Of a stretch of DNA of 36,359 bases, positions 3,852 to 34,116 are shown in pieces. The notes beneath the pieces are model-generated. The model made no database searches. It was not told the DNA's origin and worked only from the letters and a program-made list of their open reading frames with translations. This DNA is from a virus. The position numbers and the translations under genes are program-made. Where the stretch lies: positions 1-36,359 of IMG/VR virus record IMGVR_UViG_3300020172_004459; one strand, given 5' to 3'. Positions within the stretch are counted from its first letter, which is position 1. The number at the start of each line of letters is the position of its first letter.

Positions 3852-3859
3852 TATTTATA
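3852..3859 (-). promoter_or_regulatory. T4-type late promoter (perfect TATAAATA)
   Basis: The minus strand reads TATAAATA, identical to the T4 late -10 consensus. It lies 18 nt before the kinase/nucleotidyltransferase start, leaving a short leader with an AGAGGA ribosome site. Confidence 0.7.
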
Positions 3860-3874
3860 AGCATTATATGGTCA

Positions 3875-3882
3875 GATAAATA
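3875..3882 (+). promoter_or_regulatory. Late-type promoter GATAAATA, start codon at predicted +1
   Basis: GATAAATA matches the T4 late octamer at 7 of 8 bases. Five bases separate it from the ATG at 3888. Because the T4 octamer covers -13 to -6, the A of the ATG falls on the expected +1. There is no Shine-Dalgarno sequence, so the message may be leaderless. It is divergent from the minus-strand octamer at 3852. Confidence 0.6.
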
Positions 3883-3887
3883 TTTGA

Positions 3888-4853
3888 ATGAAAATCTTAG
3901 TTACAGGCGGATTAGGCCTTATTGGTCACAATGTAGTGAAAAAACTAGAACATCAAGGTCACGATGTTGTAATATCGGACACCCGTACCAATTATGGAAT
4001 TATCCCGCAAGAAGAAATAAACTACCTAATCTCAGAAAGATTAAAACATATTCGAACTGATAGAATACACAGAGTAGATATCAGCGATAGAGAAGGAGTT
4101 GACTGGTTGTTTAGACATTATCGTCCAGAAGCAGTCATCCACTTAGCTTCGTTTCCTAGACAAAAAGTTGTGAACTCTGATCCAGCAAAGGGAGCTGAAG
4201 TTATGAGCGAAGGATTGCTGAATCTTCTCGAAGCCGGAGTTAAATACCAGATAGATAGATTCATGTATGCCAGTAGCAGTATGGTCTACGGTGATTTTAA
4301 AGATCATGTCGCTGAAGATGCAGAATGCAGACCGCAAGGGCAATATGGTATTATGAAACTAGCAGGAGAGTGGCTTGTTAAAGATTATTCGCGCCGTGGG
4401 CATTTTGATCATACTATTTTCCGTCCTTCTGCTGTATACGGAGAACTCGATGTTGAAGATCGTGTTATTTCAAAGTTTTTGTTGACAGCTATGCGTGGCG
4501 GAATTCTTAAAGTCAACGGCATAAATGAAACTCTCGACTTTACCTATGTTGATGATGCTGCTAATGGATTTGTTCAGGCATTGTCTACAACTGTTACAAA
4601 AAATAAAACCTACAACATCACTAAAAGCCACAGCAAGACACTCTACGAAGCTGCTAAGTTGGCAGTAAAACTAGCAGGTCAGGGAACTATCGAAGTTAGA
4701 GATAAAGATCAAGATTTTCCCAGTCGCGGAGCCTTAGATATCACTGCTGCTCGTAGAGATTTTTCTTTCGATCCCAAGATAGATATCGAAGAAGGGTTTG
4801 AGCGGTATTATCGTTGGCTAAGTAAATCAGCATATTGGCGAGAAAATTTATGA
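3888..4853 (+). CDS. NAD-dependent sugar epimerase/dehydratase
   Basis: Extended short-chain dehydrogenase of the nucleotide-sugar epimerase type, 321 aa. The nucleotide-binding motif is GGLGLIG at residues 7-13, the catalytic Ser/Thr region is YASSSMVYG, and the YxxxK motif is YGIMK, followed by FRPSAVYG. It probably epimerises or dehydrates an NDP-sugar in the cytoplasm; UDP-glucose 4-epimerase-like and dTDP-glucose dehydratase-like enzymes share these motifs and I cannot separate them. It starts a rightward pair with the next glycosyltransferase (ATGA overlap). Confidence 0.88.
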   Translation: MKILVTGGLGLIGHNVVKKLEHQGHDVVISDTRTNYGIIPQEEINYLISERLKHIRTDRIHRVDISDREGVDWLFRHYRPEAVIHLASFPRQKVVNSDPAKGAEVMSEGLLNLLEAGVKYQIDRFMYASSSMVYGDFKDHVAEDAECRPQGQYGIMKLAGEWLVKDYSRRGHFDHTIFRPSAVYGELDVEDRVISKFLLTAMRGGILKVNGINETLDFTYVDDAANGFVQALSTTVTKNKTYNITKSHSKTLYEAAKLAVKLAGQGTIEVRDKDQDFPSRGALDITAARRDFSFDPKIDIEEGFERYYRWLSKSAYWRENL

Positions 4854-5602
4854 GAACATTCAGAGTAGTTACCAGTCAGCATCGGCCCTATTACGATCTA
4901 ATAGGCAAAGATTGCATTAAAACTTTTTTAGAATTTTGGCCTAAGGAAATTAGTATAGAATTGTGGGCAGAGGGATTTGTTCCCGACATAGAAGATCCTA
5001 GACTAATTGTTAAAGATTATAATAAAGTAAATCCTAGATGCGAAATCTTCTTAGAAAAAATGAGACCTTTTCTGCAAATACATAAACATCATATGAAAGA
5101 AAAGTTTTGGAAGAAAGGTCATGTTGTGCTATCGGCAATGGAAGAATGTGAACAAGACATCTTTATCTGGTTAGACAGTGATGTTATTACTCATGCCAAT
5201 ATTCCTATGAAATTTTTTGAAAAATTGATACCAGAGGATTGTCTATCTGTAGATATTCCTGCTGGTGGAAAAGTTGACGGTAAAGAAGCAGAAACAGGAT
5301 TTTTTATGTTAAACAAGAAACATGAAAAAGCCCGACAGATTATTGACGACTATAGACTCTGCCACACTGATATAGATGCAATGCAGACGGCATCTAGATT
5401 ATTAGAAACTGGTGTGTGGTGGAATGCTATTAAACGAGCTGAATCGCAGGGTGCTAAAACTTTTCACTTTCCTACAGCGGTAAATTCAATCGTTCCCTTT
5501 ATGGCTACTGACCTGAGCAAATATATGCGCCATTGGGTCACACCAAAAAATAAAAATCAATACCAGTCAGGAATTAAAGATAAAACTCTAGAGGAAAGAT
5601 AA
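4850..5602 (+). CDS. GT-A-type glycosyltransferase-like protein (paralogue 1)
   Basis: About 250 aa. The GT-A nucleotide-sugar metal motif appears as IWLDSDV near residue 107. The N-terminus (TSQHRPYYDLIGKDCI, then FLEFWPKEISIELWAEGF) is clearly paralogous to the proteins at 12243-12959 and 12949-13767. The start is ATG at 4850, overlapping the upstream TGA (ATGA); a TTG at 4835 is also in frame. It is probably co-translated with the epimerase and may use its product. Acceptor unknown. Confidence 0.78.
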   Translation: MRTFRVVTSQHRPYYDLIGKDCIKTFLEFWPKEISIELWAEGFVPDIEDPRLIVKDYNKVNPRCEIFLEKMRPFLQIHKHHMKEKFWKKGHVVLSAMEECEQDIFIWLDSDVITHANIPMKFFEKLIPEDCLSVDIPAGGKVDGKEAETGFFMLNKKHEKARQIIDDYRLCHTDIDAMQTASRLLETGVWWNAIKRAESQGAKTFHFPTAVNSIVPFMATDLSKYMRHWVTPKNKNQYQSGIKDKTLEER

Positions 5603-5608
5603 TAGTTA

Positions 5609-5628
5609 AAACTATTGATCAATAGTTT
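5609..5628. terminator. 20-bp perfect palindrome between convergent genes
   Basis: AAACTATTGA/TCAATAGTTT is a perfect palindrome covering the stop codon of the leftward gene and lying 6 nt after the rightward stop. An overlapping smaller repeat (AATAGTT-AA-AACTATT) starts at 5601. It probably acts as an A+T-rich bidirectional terminator; a protein-binding site is the alternative. Confidence 0.5.
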
Positions 5629-6254
5629 ACTGTTCCCCAAAGATTTTTATTTCTTCCACTGTAGTGATCACAATAATTTCCGAAAGTTGTATCGGACGGA
5701 TTCCAATCGTGGGAATTTAAATTATTGTATCTAATATTTAGATCATAAAATAATCTGCTCCATAATCCTTGATCCATAAATTCCCAATCTTTAGAAATAT
5801 ATTCTGATAAAACGACTGCTCTAGTCTTATCTAAAATTTCTCTTGTAAAATACATAAAACCGGTATTGATATATCTATCTCGAGGAATTCCTAATCTTTC
5901 GGCAAGAGCATCAGCATCTCCCGGATCAGTAACTGCACTAAATTTATCTCCTAACAGATCAAAAATATTTGGAGCGTTATCTTTTATAATATAGTCCGAA
6001 TCAAAATATACTATTCTGTCATATTGACTAAAATCATATACTTTTAATTTCTGATATGCAACGTGCTTTCCGCTAGCAGGAACCCAATCATCACTTTTTT
6101 CTATTACATAGTAATCGGCATTACATCTATCGGCATACTTTTTAGCCATACGTTGACTAGTTTCATACATTTCTTTAATATAACCAAAAGTTTTGGCTAC
6201 TTTTTTCTTCCGGTCATTAGGAATATTTAATTGGTATACTAAATTTTTTTTCAT
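5619..6254 (-). CDS. GT8-like glycosyltransferase
   Basis: A 211-aa protein with the features of small GT8-type transferases. Residues near 70-95 read AYQKLKVYDFSQYDRIVYFDSDYII, containing the DxD metal motif. INTGFMYF follows (the family's GxNTG-like acceptor-binding strand), then FMDQGLWSRLF. The start ATG at 6254 overlaps the stop of the purine nucleoside phosphorylase gene (ATGA). It is last in a four-gene leftward operon that begins at 8235. Sugar and acceptor unknown. Confidence 0.78.
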   Translation of the reverse strand: MKKNLVYQLNIPNDRKKKVAKTFGYIKEMYETSQRMAKKYADRCNADYYVIEKSDDWVPASGKHVAYQKLKVYDFSQYDRIVYFDSDYIIKDNAPNIFDLLGDKFSAVTDPGDADALAERLGIPRDRYINTGFMYFTREILDKTRAVVLSEYISKDWEFMDQGLWSRLFYDLNIRYNNLNSHDWNPSDTTFGNYCDHYSGRNKNLWGTVNY

Positions 6255-6952
6255 AGAATACTTTCTAATACGCTAACAATCATAGTTTCAAAACCAGTTT
6301 GCCTTTCTGTCGGGCTCATAGGTTCGTGTTTCCCATTTAAATGATCGCTAACGGTGTTTACAGATAAGGCTTTCTTTTTAAATCGCATAGCAAGACTATA
6401 CAATACATGAGTTTCCATTTCTACTGCTAGTATTCCTAGATCTGCCATTTTTTTCCACCAGTCTTCCTGAGGCTGATAAAAATAATCGTTACTGGTGATT
6501 GATCCTACCCAGTACCTAGTTTCTGTGGGAATGCATTTAACATAGTTACGCAATAGTTGATAGTCTGCACAAGGAGCAAATTGAAATCCAGGTAATATAT
6601 CTTTAGTCATAGCACTGTCGGTGCAGGCAGTCATGGCAACTACGATGTCATTGAGATGTACTTCTTCAGAGATACCTCCACAGCTACCTACTCTGATTAT
6701 ATTATCTACTTGATAGATATTATACAGCTCATGAACATAAATTCCTAAACTAGGCTGACCCATACCGCTAGCCTGCACACTAACGGGTTTGCCTTTATAG
6801 GTTCCGGTATAGCCTAGACAATTTCTCACAGAATTGACAAGTTTAGGATTGTCAAAATATGTTTCGGCAATCCATTTAGCTCTGAGAGGATCACCCGGTA
6901 ATAATACCGTAGATGCATAATCACCGATCTTTGCTTCATTGTGCGGAGTCAT
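6251..6952 (-). CDS. deoD: Purine nucleoside phosphorylase, DeoD type
   Basis: 233 aa, the full length of trimer-of-dimers DeoD enzymes, which cleave purine (deoxy)nucleosides with phosphate to base and (deoxy)ribose-1-phosphate. Visible signatures: TPH near the N-terminus, LLPGDPLRAKWIAE (phosphate and ribose site), IIRVGSCGG, VEMET near 178-182 (ribose contact) and SDH at 202-204 with the catalytic Asp. No key residue seems lost. AAGGTGA precedes the start. It overlaps the upstream nucleotidase gene by 17 nt. The pair suggests the sequence nucleotide to nucleoside to free base during infection. Confidence 0.93.
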   Translation of the reverse strand: MTPHNEAKIGDYASTVLLPGDPLRAKWIAETYFDNPKLVNSVRNCLGYTGTYKGKPVSVQASGMGQPSLGIYVHELYNIYQVDNIIRVGSCGGISEEVHLNDIVVAMTACTDSAMTKDILPGFQFAPCADYQLLRNYVKCIPTETRYWVGSITSNDYFYQPQEDWWKKMADLGILAVEMETHVLYSLAMRFKKKALSVNTVSDHLNGKHEPMSPTERQTGFETMIVSVLESIL

Positions 6953-7517
6953 TTATCACCTTATACAGTTCTTTCCAGTTCATAACACGCTCGCCGTCCC
7001 ATTTCTTGTTATAAGCATGGTCCATAATAACACTTCGGAGACCAACTTGTTGACCGCTAACAGCATGCGATACGCTGTCTTCGATCCAAAAATAATTTTG
7101 ATTTTTATATCTTTCTGCTAGATGATCTAATTTACCTTTGGTAAAATCTAAACTACAGTCTATATAATCAAATATATCTCCGAATAGATGTCTTAGATTT
7201 CTAGCTCTTAGTTTTTGAGCGTACTTGTCGATGTGCAAGCTACTAATAACTTCAAATCTCCAACCGTCGTCGGCTAGTTTTTTAACATATTCTTGCGAAT
7301 CTCTAAAAGGAGGTAAAAACCCAACTGCTCCACTTTCGTTAAATCTTTTAACGCAGTCTAAAGCTTCGTCCTCTGGAATACCATATCTTACTGTTTGATA
7401 AAAAGTATAATCAGTATCGGGTAATCTAAGATAACCTTGTTCGGCCATCCATACATCAAATGCAAAAGCCCAATCTAATAAAACTCCGTCACAGTCAGTG
7501 ATAATTTTTTTATGCAT
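6936..7517 (-). CDS. HAD-family 5'-nucleotidase-like hydrolase
   Basis: 193 aa. HAD motif I is DCDGVLLDW at residues 8-16 (nucleophile and acid Asp); motif II is the Ser in VISSLH; motif III/IV is a Lys region followed by FWIEDS. The small cap and overall length resemble 5'(3')-deoxyribonucleotidases of the NT5C type. It probably dephosphorylates a nucleotide, feeding the adjacent DeoD, although sugar phosphates are possible. It lies between the sugar nucleotidyltransferase (8-nt overlap) and deoD. Confidence 0.8.
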   Translation of the reverse strand: MHKKIITDCDGVLLDWAFAFDVWMAEQGYLRLPDTDYTFYQTVRYGIPEDEALDCVKRFNESGAVGFLPPFRDSQEYVKKLADDGWRFEVISSLHIDKYAQKLRARNLRHLFGDIFDYIDCSLDFTKGKLDHLAERYKNQNYFWIEDSVSHAVSGQQVGLRSVIMDHAYNKKWDGERVMNWKELYKVINDSAQ

Positions 7518-8235
7518 TTCTTATAAAACGAGTTAGTTCTGGCCAGGTTCCTAAATCTATATAATCTTCTACTTCTATACCTTTGCTCAAGTATAGTGGT
7601 GTATTTTTTATTTCATCGACAGTGACTCTTTGACGCAACGTACTTTTTTCCATAAATGCAATACATTGATCGAATGCTCTTTTTCTAAATGCAAAACTAC
7701 ACCAAAAAGCATTAAACCTTTCTAATTTTTCTTCTGGCTTATCTTCATAAGTTTCAATTATGGAATCTTCAGTTACAGACAAAGCTCCTTTGGTTTTAAG
7801 CATTGCAGGATTATTTTCTTTTTTATAAAAAAATGTAAATCCCGTTTCAGTCAAACTCGATTCTATGGCTTTGAATAAATCAACCCCTGGCGATAACTGC
7901 ATTAGTGTATCTGGTAGCAACACTACATTATGTTCACCAAATAGATGCTTGGCGCTTTTTATTGCTCCGGTATATTCTTGCTCGTTGGGATTTTGATAGG
8001 TAAAACTAATATTAAATCTGTCTTTATATTTAGAAAGATATTTGACAATATCCAGTTTGAATTCGTTAAAGACTATTATAAATTCTACGTCTTTTCTACC
8101 GTAATCCTTAAAAAAATCAAATGAAAAGTCAATCAAAGATTGTCCCTCACTGACGCGAAGTATTTCTTTGGAATAAGGTAATCCAAGTCTGCTGCCTTGT
8201 CCTGCAGCCGGGATAATTACTGTAAGTTTGCTCAT
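7510..8235 (-). CDS. Sugar-phosphate nucleotidyltransferase
   Basis: 241 aa, NTP_transferase fold. The signature loop is IPAAGQGSRLG at residues 8-18, followed by YSKEIL (Lys of the pyrophosphorylase motif) and LLPDTLM, equivalent to the metal-binding Asp strand. It should make an NDP-sugar from NTP and sugar-1-phosphate (GlmU/RfbA/ManC relatives); the nucleotide and sugar are not evident. It is first in the leftward operon, lacks a Shine-Dalgarno, and has a CATAAATA octamer ending 5 nt before the ATG. Confidence 0.82.
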   Translation of the reverse strand: MSKLTVIIPAAGQGSRLGLPYSKEILRVSEGQSLIDFSFDFFKDYGRKDVEFIIVFNEFKLDIVKYLSKYKDRFNISFTYQNPNEQEYTGAIKSAKHLFGEHNVVLLPDTLMQLSPGVDLFKAIESSLTETGFTFFYKKENNPAMLKTKGALSVTEDSIIETYEDKPEEKLERFNAFWCSFAFRKRAFDQCIAFMEKSTLRQRVTVDEIKNTPLYLSKGIEVEDYIDLGTWPELTRFIRNA

Positions 8236-8240
8236 AAAGT

Positions 8241-8248
8241 TATTTATG
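8241..8248 (-). promoter_or_regulatory. Late-type promoter CATAAATA, start codon at predicted +1
   Basis: CATAAATA on the minus strand matches 7 of 8 bases of the T4 late consensus. Exactly 5 nt (ACTTT) separate it from the ATG at 8235, so a T4-like start site would be the A of that ATG. Confidence 0.6.
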
Positions 8249-8261
8249 CGCAGTTTATTCT

Positions 8262-8269
8262 ACTAAATA
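8262..8269 (+). promoter_or_regulatory. Possible weak late promoter ACTAAATA
   Basis: ACTAAATA matches the late octamer at 6 of 8 bases and lies 24 nt before the ATG at 8294. TAAAACTA at 8281-8288 also matches 6 of 8 and sits 5 nt from the ATG. Either could serve; both are weak. Confidence 0.35.
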
Positions 8270-8293: not shown

Positions 8294-9058
8294 ATGAAAA
8301 CTATTGTTCTAATTACTGGAGGGTTTGACCCTATCCATTCAGGGCACATTGCCTATCTCAACGAAGCTAGAAAGCTAGGTGACATTCTAGTAGTAGGAGC
8401 TAATTCTGATGATTGGCTAAAAAGAAAGAAAGGTAGAGAATTTATGCCTTGGGAAGAACGTGCTAGTGTACTATCGGCAATCAGCGGTGTCGATCGCGTG
8501 ATCAACTTTAACGACGATGATGGATCTGCCAAAGATGCTATCAGGAAGGTAAGAGAACTATATCCTAAAGATAAGATAGTCTTCGCCAACGGCGGAGATC
8601 GAACTGATAATAATATTCCAGAAATGGACATTCAAGATAACGATCTTAAATTTGTCTTCGGTGTAGGCGGATTCCATAAATCAAATTCTAGTTCCTGGAT
8701 CTTACAAGAATGGAAAGCACCTAAGACTGAACGTCAATGGGGTTACTATCGAGTACTACATGAAAATAGTTCAGAAGTTAAACTTAAAGAATTGACTGTG
8801 GAGCCCGGAAAACAACTCAGTATGCAGCGTCATGCTGATCGAGCTGAACATTGGTTTGTCGCAGAAGGCACCGCAACAGTCTATACCATAAACAGAAAAA
8901 GCGATTCAGAACTACTAGGAGTTTTCAATAAATTTCAGCATGTACATATCAATCGCACCGAATGGCATCAACTAGCCAATGAAGGTACAGAGCCGTTGAA
9001 GATGATTGAAATCCAATACGGTGAACGCTGTGTCGAAGAGGACATCGAACGTCGATGA
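8294..9058 (+). CDS. Cytidylyltransferase fused to a mannose-6-phosphate-isomerase-type cupin
   Basis: 254-aa two-domain protein. Residues 1-130 are an HxGH nucleotidyltransferase (TGGFDPIHSGHIAYL at 8-22, a WxxxR-type EERASVL) like glycerol-3-phosphate cytidylyltransferase or the C-terminal adenylyltransferase of HldE/RfaE. Residues 148-250 are a cupin resembling the C-terminal mannose-6-phosphate isomerase domain of ManC: WGYYRVL, LTVEPGKQLSMQRHADRAEHW, VAEGTATV. The pair may activate a sugar or polyol phosphate and isomerise a hexose phosphate. No ribosome site is seen. It ends with an overlap into the next gene. Confidence 0.82.
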   Translation: MKTIVLITGGFDPIHSGHIAYLNEARKLGDILVVGANSDDWLKRKKGREFMPWEERASVLSAISGVDRVINFNDDDGSAKDAIRKVRELYPKDKIVFANGGDRTDNNIPEMDIQDNDLKFVFGVGGFHKSNSSSWILQEWKAPKTERQWGYYRVLHENSSEVKLKELTVEPGKQLSMQRHADRAEHWFVAEGTATVYTINRKSDSELLGVFNKFQHVHINRTEWHQLANEGTEPLKMIEIQYGERCVEEDIERR

Positions 9059-14774: not shown

Positions 14775-14782
14775 TATTTATT
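14775..14782 (-). promoter_or_regulatory. Late-type promoter AATAAATA for gmd
   Basis: The minus strand reads AATAAATA (7 of 8 to the late consensus), 27 nt before the gmd start, which has an AGGATC ribosome site. It sits inside a GAGTA-ttatt-TACTC-type inverted repeat. Confidence 0.5.
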
Positions 14783-16066: not shown

Positions 16067-16095
16067 TTGACTTTTTGTTGAGAATTCGCTAAAAT
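16067..16095 (+). promoter_or_regulatory. Strong sigma70-like promoter, start codon at predicted +1
   Basis: TTGACT, 17 nt, TAAAAT: five of six bases match in each hexamer with ideal spacing. Six bases separate the -10 hexamer from the ATG at 16102, placing +1 on the A of the ATG. No Shine-Dalgarno is present. It would drive the whole uvsW operon by host polymerase. Confidence 0.75.
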
Positions 16096-23354: not shown

Positions 23355-23362
23355 GATAAATA
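23355..23362 (+). promoter_or_regulatory. Late-type promoter GATAAATA
   Basis: GATAAATA (7 of 8 to the late consensus) lies 18 nt before the ATG at 23381, which has an AAAGG ribosome site. It fits late expression of a structural-type gene placed among early replication genes. Confidence 0.6.
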
Positions 23363-23380: not shown

Positions 23381-24211
23381 ATGCAACTAAATTCTGTTTA
23401 TTTATATCCAAACAAAGTCGATGTATTTACTAATTCTTTGGCTACCTGGCAAAAAGAGAGGTATCGCAGAGTGTATAATCGAAACTTAAAAATCTATCGT
23501 GGGTGTGATAACCGTGTTGATCTTCAGGTAAGAAATTCAGATGAAAAATCGCAGGATATATCAACTAGACCTTATATAGTGTTTAATCTTATCAATAAAG
23601 AAACTCAAGAACTTGTTCTGCAAAAAGACTGTGAAATCGCCAGTGCAAGTGGCGGTAAAGCCTATGTTATTATTACTGAGATAGAAATGACGGCTATTGA
23701 AACAGGGTATTATCATTTTTCTCTGCATTCAGAAACTAGAACAATGGTCGGCAATTATCACACTGTATCAGCCAGAACCCCATTATATGTTGATTCGCAG
23801 TACGGCACATTTGGCATTGTTGAAGTTGGGCAACATCTAATGGGAGAACCCTTAGATAGTCTTAGAATTGATGAATTCAAAGAAGTTATAGTCAGTGCAT
23901 CGGCCACTGTAGTAACTGACAAGCATTATTTCAGCAGTATAATAGATGCTAAACCTAATTTAACTGTACCGGCTTCTGTACATACGTTTCAGTTTAATAT
24001 GAGTAGCTATCATGGCGAAATTGAAGTTCAAGCCAGTCAAGACGAGGGAGCTGACCCTCAAGTTTGGGCAACTGTATCTACTACAACTGCCGATAACGAT
24101 TCGATACTTTATGGAAACGTTATTGGCAAATATAGTTGGTTTAGAATTAAACATACGCCCGATTTAACTCAAAATAACCCAGGAAGCCTTGACGAAATAT
24201 TGTACAGATAG
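23381..24211 (+). CDS. Probable virion structural protein
   Basis: 276 aa. The N-terminus (VYLYPNKVDVFTN, RVYNRNLKIYRGCDNRVDLQVRNSDEK) and YVDSQYGTFGIVEVG resemble proteins annotated as virion structural in T4-type cyanophages. The beta-rich composition with an Ig-like C-terminal half (FQFNMSSYHGEIEVQASQDEG) supports a tail or baseplate role. The late promoter in front agrees. The assignment rests on memory of family patterns, not a search. Confidence 0.6.
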   Translation: MQLNSVYLYPNKVDVFTNSLATWQKERYRRVYNRNLKIYRGCDNRVDLQVRNSDEKSQDISTRPYIVFNLINKETQELVLQKDCEIASASGGKAYVIITEIEMTAIETGYYHFSLHSETRTMVGNYHTVSARTPLYVDSQYGTFGIVEVGQHLMGEPLDSLRIDEFKEVIVSASATVVTDKHYFSSIIDAKPNLTVPASVHTFQFNMSSYHGEIEVQASQDEGADPQVWATVSTTTADNDSILYGNVIGKYSWFRIKHTPDLTQNNPGSLDEILYR

Positions 24212-24217
24212 TATAAT
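24189..24217 (+). promoter_or_regulatory. Strong sigma70-like promoter, start codon at predicted +1
   Basis: TTGACG, 17 nt, TATAAT: the -10 hexamer is perfect and five of six -35 bases match. It lies at the end of the structural gene. Six nt separate the -10 from the primase ATG at 24224, the same geometry as at 16067-16102. No clear ribosome site. Confidence 0.78.
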
Positions 24218-28358: not shown

Positions 28359-28593
28359 GAAGGTTTTACTAACTAGTTGGGAATGGACCACCGACGAGGC
28401 AGCCCATAATCTAGATATAGATTGGCCGAGAGTCCAGAGAAATATAGGATCTGATCATTTGAAATGGTTGTTAGCACAAGATAAAGAATCCTGTCAATTA
28501 CTGCTAGAAACTAACAGTACCTGTATTAAATTAGTAGCAGAATTCTATAATGAACATATACTCACAACCTATCATCTAATGTGGGCTAAATAA
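28348..28593 (+). CDS. Small unknown protein
   Basis: 81 aa with a helical, Trp-containing composition (LLTSWEWTTDEAAHNLDIDWPRVQRNIG), overlapping the helicase end by 11 nt. Not recognised. Position directly after the helicase suggests a replication accessory, inference only. Confidence 0.7.
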   Translation: MKSKKVLLTSWEWTTDEAAHNLDIDWPRVQRNIGSDHLKWLLAQDKESCQLLLETNSTCIKLVAEFYNEHILTTYHLMWAK

Positions 28594-28596
28594 TGG

Positions 28597-29313
28597 ATGC
28601 GCATTACAGAACTGCTAGAATCCAAAAATTACGTCACAGTCAACAGCAGATTAAATCCTAAACTCTGGGATGGTGATCAGCTAAGACCGGAAGTCGAATC
28701 TAAATTAAAAGAAATCGCCCGAGCTTTTGAAGATTTTATCGGAGTCGATATCAAGGTTATAGATTATACAATAACCGGATCTAATGCCAATTATACTTGG
28801 ACTGCATATTCAGATCTTGACCTACATCTTATAGTTCCCGGCACTCCCAGCGAAGAAGAACGAGAATTGTTTTCAGCAAAAAAGAGTCTTTGGGCTGAAC
28901 AACGTGATATTACTATTCGAGGACTTCCGGTAGAATGTTATGTGCAAGGTGATAAAGAAGAACACCATAGCACTGGAGTGTATAGCATAGCTAACAATCA
29001 ATGGCTGGTCGAACCAAAGAAAATAAAACCGGAAGTAGATGATAGTGCCGTGGAAGCTAAGAAAGATGCTGTACTTGCTGCCGTAGAGCAGGCGCTAATC
29101 TCCAACGATCTCAACAAGTTGCGCTCAGTAAAAGACAAGATTACGCAGATGCGTAAGGCAGGACTAGCTCGCGCCGGGGAATGGTCAGTGGAAAATCTAG
29201 TGTTTAAGATCCTACGCAATCTAGGACTAATCGATCAGATCACTGATAAAATCAGAGAACTAGAAGATCAAGAACTTAGTCTAGAACAGTCACAGACTAA
29301 TAATCAGTATTAA
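28597..29313 (+). CDS. Pol-beta-type nucleotidyltransferase
   Basis: 238 aa. The N-terminal half shows the minimal nucleotidyltransferase signature: ITGSNANYTWTAYSDLDLHLIV around residues 58-79 (GS motif and DxD metal ligands), then VECYVQGDKEE as the third-acid strand. The C-terminal half is helical. It may nucleotidylate tRNA, protein or small RNA; the substrate is unknown. Last gene of the rightward block; the stop overlaps the convergent oxygenase by 17 nt. Confidence 0.78.
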   Translation: MRITELLESKNYVTVNSRLNPKLWDGDQLRPEVESKLKEIARAFEDFIGVDIKVIDYTITGSNANYTWTAYSDLDLHLIVPGTPSEEERELFSAKKSLWAEQRDITIRGLPVECYVQGDKEEHHSTGVYSIANNQWLVEPKKIKPEVDDSAVEAKKDAVLAAVEQALISNDLNKLRSVKDKITQMRKAGLARAGEWSVENLVFKILRNLGLIDQITDKIRELEDQELSLEQSQTNNQY

Positions 29314-32231: not shown

Positions 32232-32239
32232 TATTTATC
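32232..32239 (-). promoter_or_regulatory. Late-type promoter GATAAATA
   Basis: The minus strand reads GATAAATA (7 of 8), 19 nt before the ATG at 32212, leaving room for the GAGGAG ribosome site. Confidence 0.55.
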
Positions 32240-34089: not shown

Positions 34090-34116
34090 GTTCTAGCTCC
34101 TTTTAGCTTATTTAGC

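Follow-up and report, generated by a model that had tools for sequence, protein, structure and literature searches.

Late-promoter boxes five nucleotides before start codons appear to mark a largely conserved leaderless class of late genes in environmental T4-related phages

The late transcription of bacteriophage T4 is a textbook system. Its late promoters, served by gp55, gp33 and gp45, consist of the box TATAAATA without a -35 element, and this box, which is also the one considered here, starts at -13 (PMC2988020). In T4, the boxes lie mostly 17-29 nt upstream of start codons, none lies at 5 nt, and a Shine-Dalgarno (SD) sequence is present in 90% of the genes with a box at 15-35 nt. A motif of the same family, NATAAATA, characterizes the late promoters of the cyanophages S-PM2 and Syn9, in which gp55 and gp33 are present (PMC2984593); the Syn9 boxes are located 15-30 nt upstream, with no gene at 5 nt. 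Messengers with a 5'-terminal AUG and no SD sequence, as proposed below, occur in lambda cI, mycobacteria and mycobacteriophage Corndog, the leaderless promoters of the latter being predicted (PMC4351075). Jumbo phages phiKZ and AR9 also have their own late-promoter motif, but they employ a multisubunit phage polymerase and other motifs, and the AR9 leaders are 26-491 nt long (PMC5312081). The lambda and Corndog cases are limited to one gene and to two predicted promoters, respectively, whereas the phages analysed here appear to carry a recurrent class on a T4-type late promoter. The novelty of this class rests only on a full-text search of open-access papers, in which no leaderless late mRNAs in T4-like phages were found.

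The window, that is, the whole stretch of 36,359 nt analysed here (IMG/VR record IMGVR_UViG_3300020172_004459), encodes a gp32-like single-stranded DNA-binding protein, UvsX, UvsY, UvsW, a DnaB-type helicase (gp41 in the T4-like gene set) and a primase, and thereby meets the definition of the T4 superfamily by its replication genes. Its UvsX is nearest to those of jumbo members of this superfamily, namely Vibrio 2.275.O (68%), Xanthomonas XbC2, Sinorhizobium Phosso and CBB. The window is best explained as part of the genome of a T4-superfamily phage, and to judge from its relatives this is most likely a jumbo phage.

The preliminary description claimed that octamers separated from an ATG by exactly 5 nt, with no SD sequence, mark leaderless late mRNAs. 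This arrangement was confirmed at three genes of the window, encoding an epimerase, a nucleotidyltransferase-like protein and a protein of unknown function (Table 1). The core TAAATA is not over-represented across the window (27 found, 39 expected). For any one spacer, 0.23 genes would be expected from the upstream rate, compared with three seen (P 0.0018); among 15 hexamers of the same composition at the 5-nt spacer, TAAATA occurs three times, ATAATA once and the other 13 never. Correction for 50 spacers gives P of about 0.09, and the window by itself is therefore no proof. The epimerase gene does not carry the case, because its orthologues in other phages, with the same Met start, lie mostly within operons without an octamer. 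In relatives of the 8235 gene, TAAATA is found 6 nt (L084) or 9 nt (L085-L088, L090) before the start, and the only relative found for the 287-aa gene (L003, 60% identity) has no octamer.

Table 1. Promoter-like elements and associated genes in the window
Feature	Position	Strand	Remarks
Late-promoter octamer GATAAATA	3875-3882	+	Spacer TTTGA, 5 nt to ATG 3888; no SD; leaderless class
NDP-sugar epimerase gene	3888..4853	+	Pfam Epimerase 2.7e-45; predicted leaderless, mRNA from A of ATG
Late-promoter octamer CATAAATA	8248-8241	-	Spacer ACTTT, 5 nt to ATG 8235; no SD; leaderless class
Nucleotidyltransferase-like gene	7510..8235	-	NTP_transferase 3.4e-6; predicted leaderless; heads minus-strand run 8235-5619
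Late-promoter octamer AGTAAATA	35367-35360	-	Spacer TTCAC, 5 nt to ATG 35354; no SD; leaderless class
Gene of unknown function, 287 aa	34491..35354	-	Predicted leaderless
Octamer TATAAATA	3852..3859	-	18 nt to ATG 3833; leadered; SD-like AGAGGA
Octamer AATAAATA	14775..14782	-	27 nt to ATG 14747; leadered; weak SD (GGAT)
Octamer GATAAATA	23355..23362	+	18 nt to ATG 23381; leadered; AAAGG
Octamer GATAAATA	32232..32239	-	19 nt to ATG 32212; leadered; GAGGAG
Octamer GCTAAATA	34109..34116	-	19 nt to ATG 34089; leadered; AAGGAG
Octamer ACTAAATA	8262..8269	+	24 nt to ATG 8294 (nucleotidyltransferase-type gene); no SD
TTGACT-N17-TAAAAT	16067..16095	+	Sigma70-like; 6 nt to ATG 16102; early/middle promoter, predicted leaderless
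TTGACG-N17-TATAAT	24189..24217	+	Sigma70-like; 6 nt to ATG 24224 (primase); predicted leaderless

Other octamers of the window lie farther from the start codon, and the genes behind them had been described as mostly possessing ribosome sites. The direction of this claim is right, as three of the four genes named (3833, 23381 and 32212) have SD-like sequences, but it holds only loosely within the window: the 14747 gene has merely a weak GGAT, and the leadered genes at 8294 and 15190 have none. The spacing before the 14747 gene is preserved in one relative (G001, 26 nt), and the 23381 gene is leadered at 16-21 nt in seven of nine octamer-bearing orthologues, the window gene included. All six orthologues of the 8294 gene are leaderless at 5 nt, which makes the window the exception. 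A TAAATA lying 4 nt before the gene at 28597 was not counted as a promoter site, since its TAA terminates the upstream gene as a stop codon. This compact stop/start junction mimics a box at 4 nt, and its sequence GGCTAAATAATGGATG (window 28581-28599) is conserved in three phages (also L207:14011-14724 and L340:11487-12206).

Relatives (G001-G014) were drawn from IMG/VR via UvsX, the epimerase and a nucleotidyltransferase. All of them are metagenomic contigs, mostly fragments, with computed starts; genes were called by a coding-score method blind to upstream sequence, after which TAAATA-to-start distances were determined. The pooled spectrum covers 14 related records with 1582 genes, that is, the window and its relatives with G012 kept apart. 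TAAATA lies at 4, 5 and 6 nt in 25, 83 and 7 genes, respectively, followed by 10 genes at 7 nt, 6 at 8 nt, almost none up to 15 nt, and a broad peak at 16-30 nt. For such a plot, the preliminary description had predicted a sharp maximum at 5 nt in genes without SD sequences, which is what the relatives exhibit. An unbiased search over hexamers and positions (1228 genes) returned TAAATA at spacer 5 as the strongest upstream signal (68 versus 3.1 expected, z 37). Coincidence in an AT-rich genome, for which the corrected value of the window alone leaves some room, is refuted by this signal and by the conservation among orthologues described below, and can be virtually dismissed. Additionally, counts of TAAATANNNNYATG made without any gene caller reached 16 in G013, 24 in G005, 10 in G001, 38 in G012 and 12 in Pelagibacter phage HTVC008M, compared with 0-2 in the reversed control, while the 11-nt version remained at background level. 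The corresponding counts for Atu_ph07 (10 versus 3) and Mosig (7 versus 2) hint at a few 5-nt sites in these phages.

The contrast in SD content, loose in the window, is very strong in the relatives. SD-like sites occur in 2 of the 83 genes of the 5-nt class, in 119 of the 183 leadered genes and in 646 of the remaining 1307 (P 3e-25 for 5-nt versus leadered genes). The start codon is ATG in all 83 cases, and the base preceding it is a pyrimidine in 77 of them (0.48 elsewhere; P 2e-18). In the leadered promoters of T4 and Syn9, the frequency of the pyrimidine-purine step is highest precisely 5 nt past TAAATA (0.49), and the same is true of Vibrio 2.275.O, CBB and Atu_ph07 (0.45), which provides an independent marker of the initiation point. 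Combined with the box start at -13, these data place +1 on the A of the ATG, a position inferred from the spacing and the Y-1/A+1 step, without RNA data. The clade's own leadered class counts against this inference, since the step shows no sharp preference for 5 nt there (0.28), which suggests that its start point may be looser.

The same arrangement might be read as a translation enhancer, in which an A/U-rich, S1-type or unstructured start region acts on an mRNA that begins farther upstream. A/T-rich unstructured start regions can indeed substitute for an SD sequence, and 77% of the genes with a box at 4-6 nt follow a gene on the same strand. However, the motif in question is the late box of T4, its spacing is fixed to one nucleotide, hexamers with the same bases in permuted order are much less frequent at 5 nt, and the same motif serves SD-bearing leadered genes at 16-35 nt. 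The Y-1/A+1 step also speaks against an enhancer, as does the frequent location of the box right behind a terminator hairpin, with a T5+ run upstream of 22/83 genes of the 5-nt class versus 6/183 leadered ones. Enhancement of translation is thus considered improbable, and transcription starting at the ATG from a late promoter is preferred.

The boxes have the defining form of T4-type late promoters, being TATAAATA-like with a conserved TAAATA core. TTGACA-like -35 elements show no clear enrichment at 5-nt sites (18/83 versus 11.8 in the control), as such promoters predict. In the relatives, the genes behind the boxes include late genes, encoding terminase, tail-tube-family, head-tail adaptor (Ad2), head and sheath proteins. 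The gp55 family phrog_234 is observed in longer relatives (G004, G012 and G013) and in cultured ones, including HTVC008M (I899_gp099). The window, itself only 36 kb long, yielded no member of this family, and neither did G001, G005 or other fragments. Host-type -10 boxes (TANNNT), recognized by a host sigma factor and leaderless without being late, represent another possibility, especially as a leaderless TTGACA-N17-TATAAT-N6-ATG class exists in the same phages. Nevertheless, sequence and register differ, with TAAATA at 5 nt instead of TATAAT at 6 nt. The weak enrichment of -35 elements argues against it too, and so does the presence of terminase, tail-tube-family, head and adaptor genes in the 5-nt class, together with the tape measure, baseplate and tail completion genes of HTVC008M. 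This makes a host-type origin of the 5-nt sites very unlikely.

The sigma70-like leaderless class is in itself an addition to the preliminary description. Upstream of genes, TATAAT is enriched at 6 nt (17 versus 1.5) and TTGACA at 29 nt (10 versus 0.6). Full TTGACA-N16..18-TATAAT promoters in the clade form a sharp peak at 6 nt, with 24 genes compared with 4 at 5 nt and 4 at 7 nt, and a second, leadered class at 15-60 nt. The arrangement is kept in 7/8 group members at the 16102 gene and in 9/14 at the primase; no sigma70-like promoter at 6 nt was found in T4, Syn9, CBB, Vibrio 2.275.O or Atu_ph07. In other words, leaderless starts are not special to late promoters. In three bacteria-binned genomes, the pattern reached about 2 times and 1.6 times the reversed control in two and fell below it in the third, which is not conclusive. 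Contigs binned with bacteria gave a mixed host assignment (Pelagibacter, 'Rickettsiales', Methylophilaceae, Neomarinimicrobiota and others) and were uninformative.

Whether a gene is leaderless or leadered is largely a property of the gene. Of 305 orthologue pairs in 30 groups, 243 share the same class, compared with a shuffled mean of 154, and none of 2000 shuffles reached this value; the claim of two classes rather than chance is upheld by this conservation. In most relatives, the genes for terminase, a tail-tube-family protein, two head proteins and the head-tail adaptor Ad2 belong to the leaderless class. The sheath gene of the tail is leadered at 30-35 nt with an SD sequence in all eight octamer-bearing clade members, with AGGAG in those listed. 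Some groups are mixed, the main exception being G005, which is leadered where its relatives are leaderless. As start choice relied on coding score, wrongly assigned starts, with the real ones located downstream behind an SD sequence, also need to be weighed. An SD-led in-frame alternative within 57 nt exists in only 3/83 genes, much as in leadered ones (5/183), terminase orthologues share a common N-terminus, and the RefSeq starts of HTVC008M coincide with the 5-nt starts; such misassignment is hardly credible.

The terminase gene illustrates the conservation of distance. Most of 80 IMG/VR terminase loci have TAAATA 4-6 nt before the ATG, and the stretch between them varies in sequence and hardly in length. 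In a terminase tree made by a quick method, with long branches, the 5-nt state is clustered, with several apparent gains or losses. A marine subgroup has the box at 7-8 nt, namely at 7 nt in L370, L372, L375, L379, L383, L386 and L389, and at 8 nt in L390, L402 and other close relatives; 2-nt leaders are possible there. Upstream of many terminase genes (L344-L423), a T-run terminator hairpin abuts the late box and the box abuts the ATG, all within about 45 nt.

The explanation considered highly probable is that of two gene classes, largely conserved, behind one T4-type late promoter. The promoter would be a TATA box of roughly [A/G][A/C]TAAATA, read and melted by host RNA polymerase with a gp55-type sigma factor, whose use is inferred, and the sixth nucleotide downstream of this box would be the start point of transcription. 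In the first class, evolution may have put the start codon at +1, so that the mRNA would begin with AUG, without leader or SD sequence, and would be translated directly on this 5'-terminal AUG, presumably by 70S ribosomes binding there (PMC9031893). In the second, the same promoter would lie 16-35 nt upstream and an SD-bearing leader would be kept. The actual 5' ends and the ribosomal mechanism remain inferred, as do any advantage and the reason why a gene falls in one class. One possible reason, an untested idea, is copy number, as the high-copy sheath keeps an SD leader and terminase and adaptor, needed in few copies, are leaderless.

When leaderless translation pays has so far been investigated mainly with individual genes and in bacteria, mycobacteria for instance. 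Here, a large group of environmental T4 relatives appears to dispense with the leader on certain late genes, terminase included, that form a defined and largely conserved set. The same promoter with and without a leader offers a natural gene set for addressing this question, and when genomes of environmental phages are annotated, the 5-nt rule aids the calling of start codons and late genes. More tentatively, and with slightly less than even confidence, a widespread, mostly uncultivated T4-like branch may run a two-track translation programme, in which box-to-start distance, at sigma70-like and late promoters alike, assigns genes heritably to leaderless or SD-led initiation. If true, such a programme would let a phage set the level or timing of expression via ribosome state (70S versus 30S initiation) without a separate regulator.

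Cultured phages differ in this respect. No gene with a box at 5 nt was found in T4, Syn9, CBB, Vibrio 2.275.O or 400 kb of Atu_ph07, where boxes lie mostly 15-40 nt upstream, and PA5oct has two such genes along with 44 leadered ones. HTVC008M, cultured in Pelagibacter HTCC1062, resembles the clade in that the box lies exactly 5 nt before nine of its genes, compared with 0.4 expected, although it is smaller (147 kb) and belongs to Kyanoviridae. The nine start codons are at 6280, 7562, 16007(-), 18916(-), 19456, 31132, 49760, 75830 and 142360. These genes include the tape measure, DNA end protector, tail tube cap, baseplate wedge, baseplate wedge initiator and tail completion genes. No report of leaderless expression in HTVC008M was found in the open-access literature searched, and as a cultured phage it makes the idea testable now. 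It also encodes a homologue of ribosomal protein S21 (L495:41228-41431). Finally, G012 (L322-L333) is a 230-kb phage in which the box lies 5 nt before 34 genes and 6 nt before 12, and its portal gene is leaderless, whereas that of T4 is leadered at 28 nt. Outside its octamer classes, only 11-14% of genes have SD sites, which suggests a host that hardly uses SD sequences.
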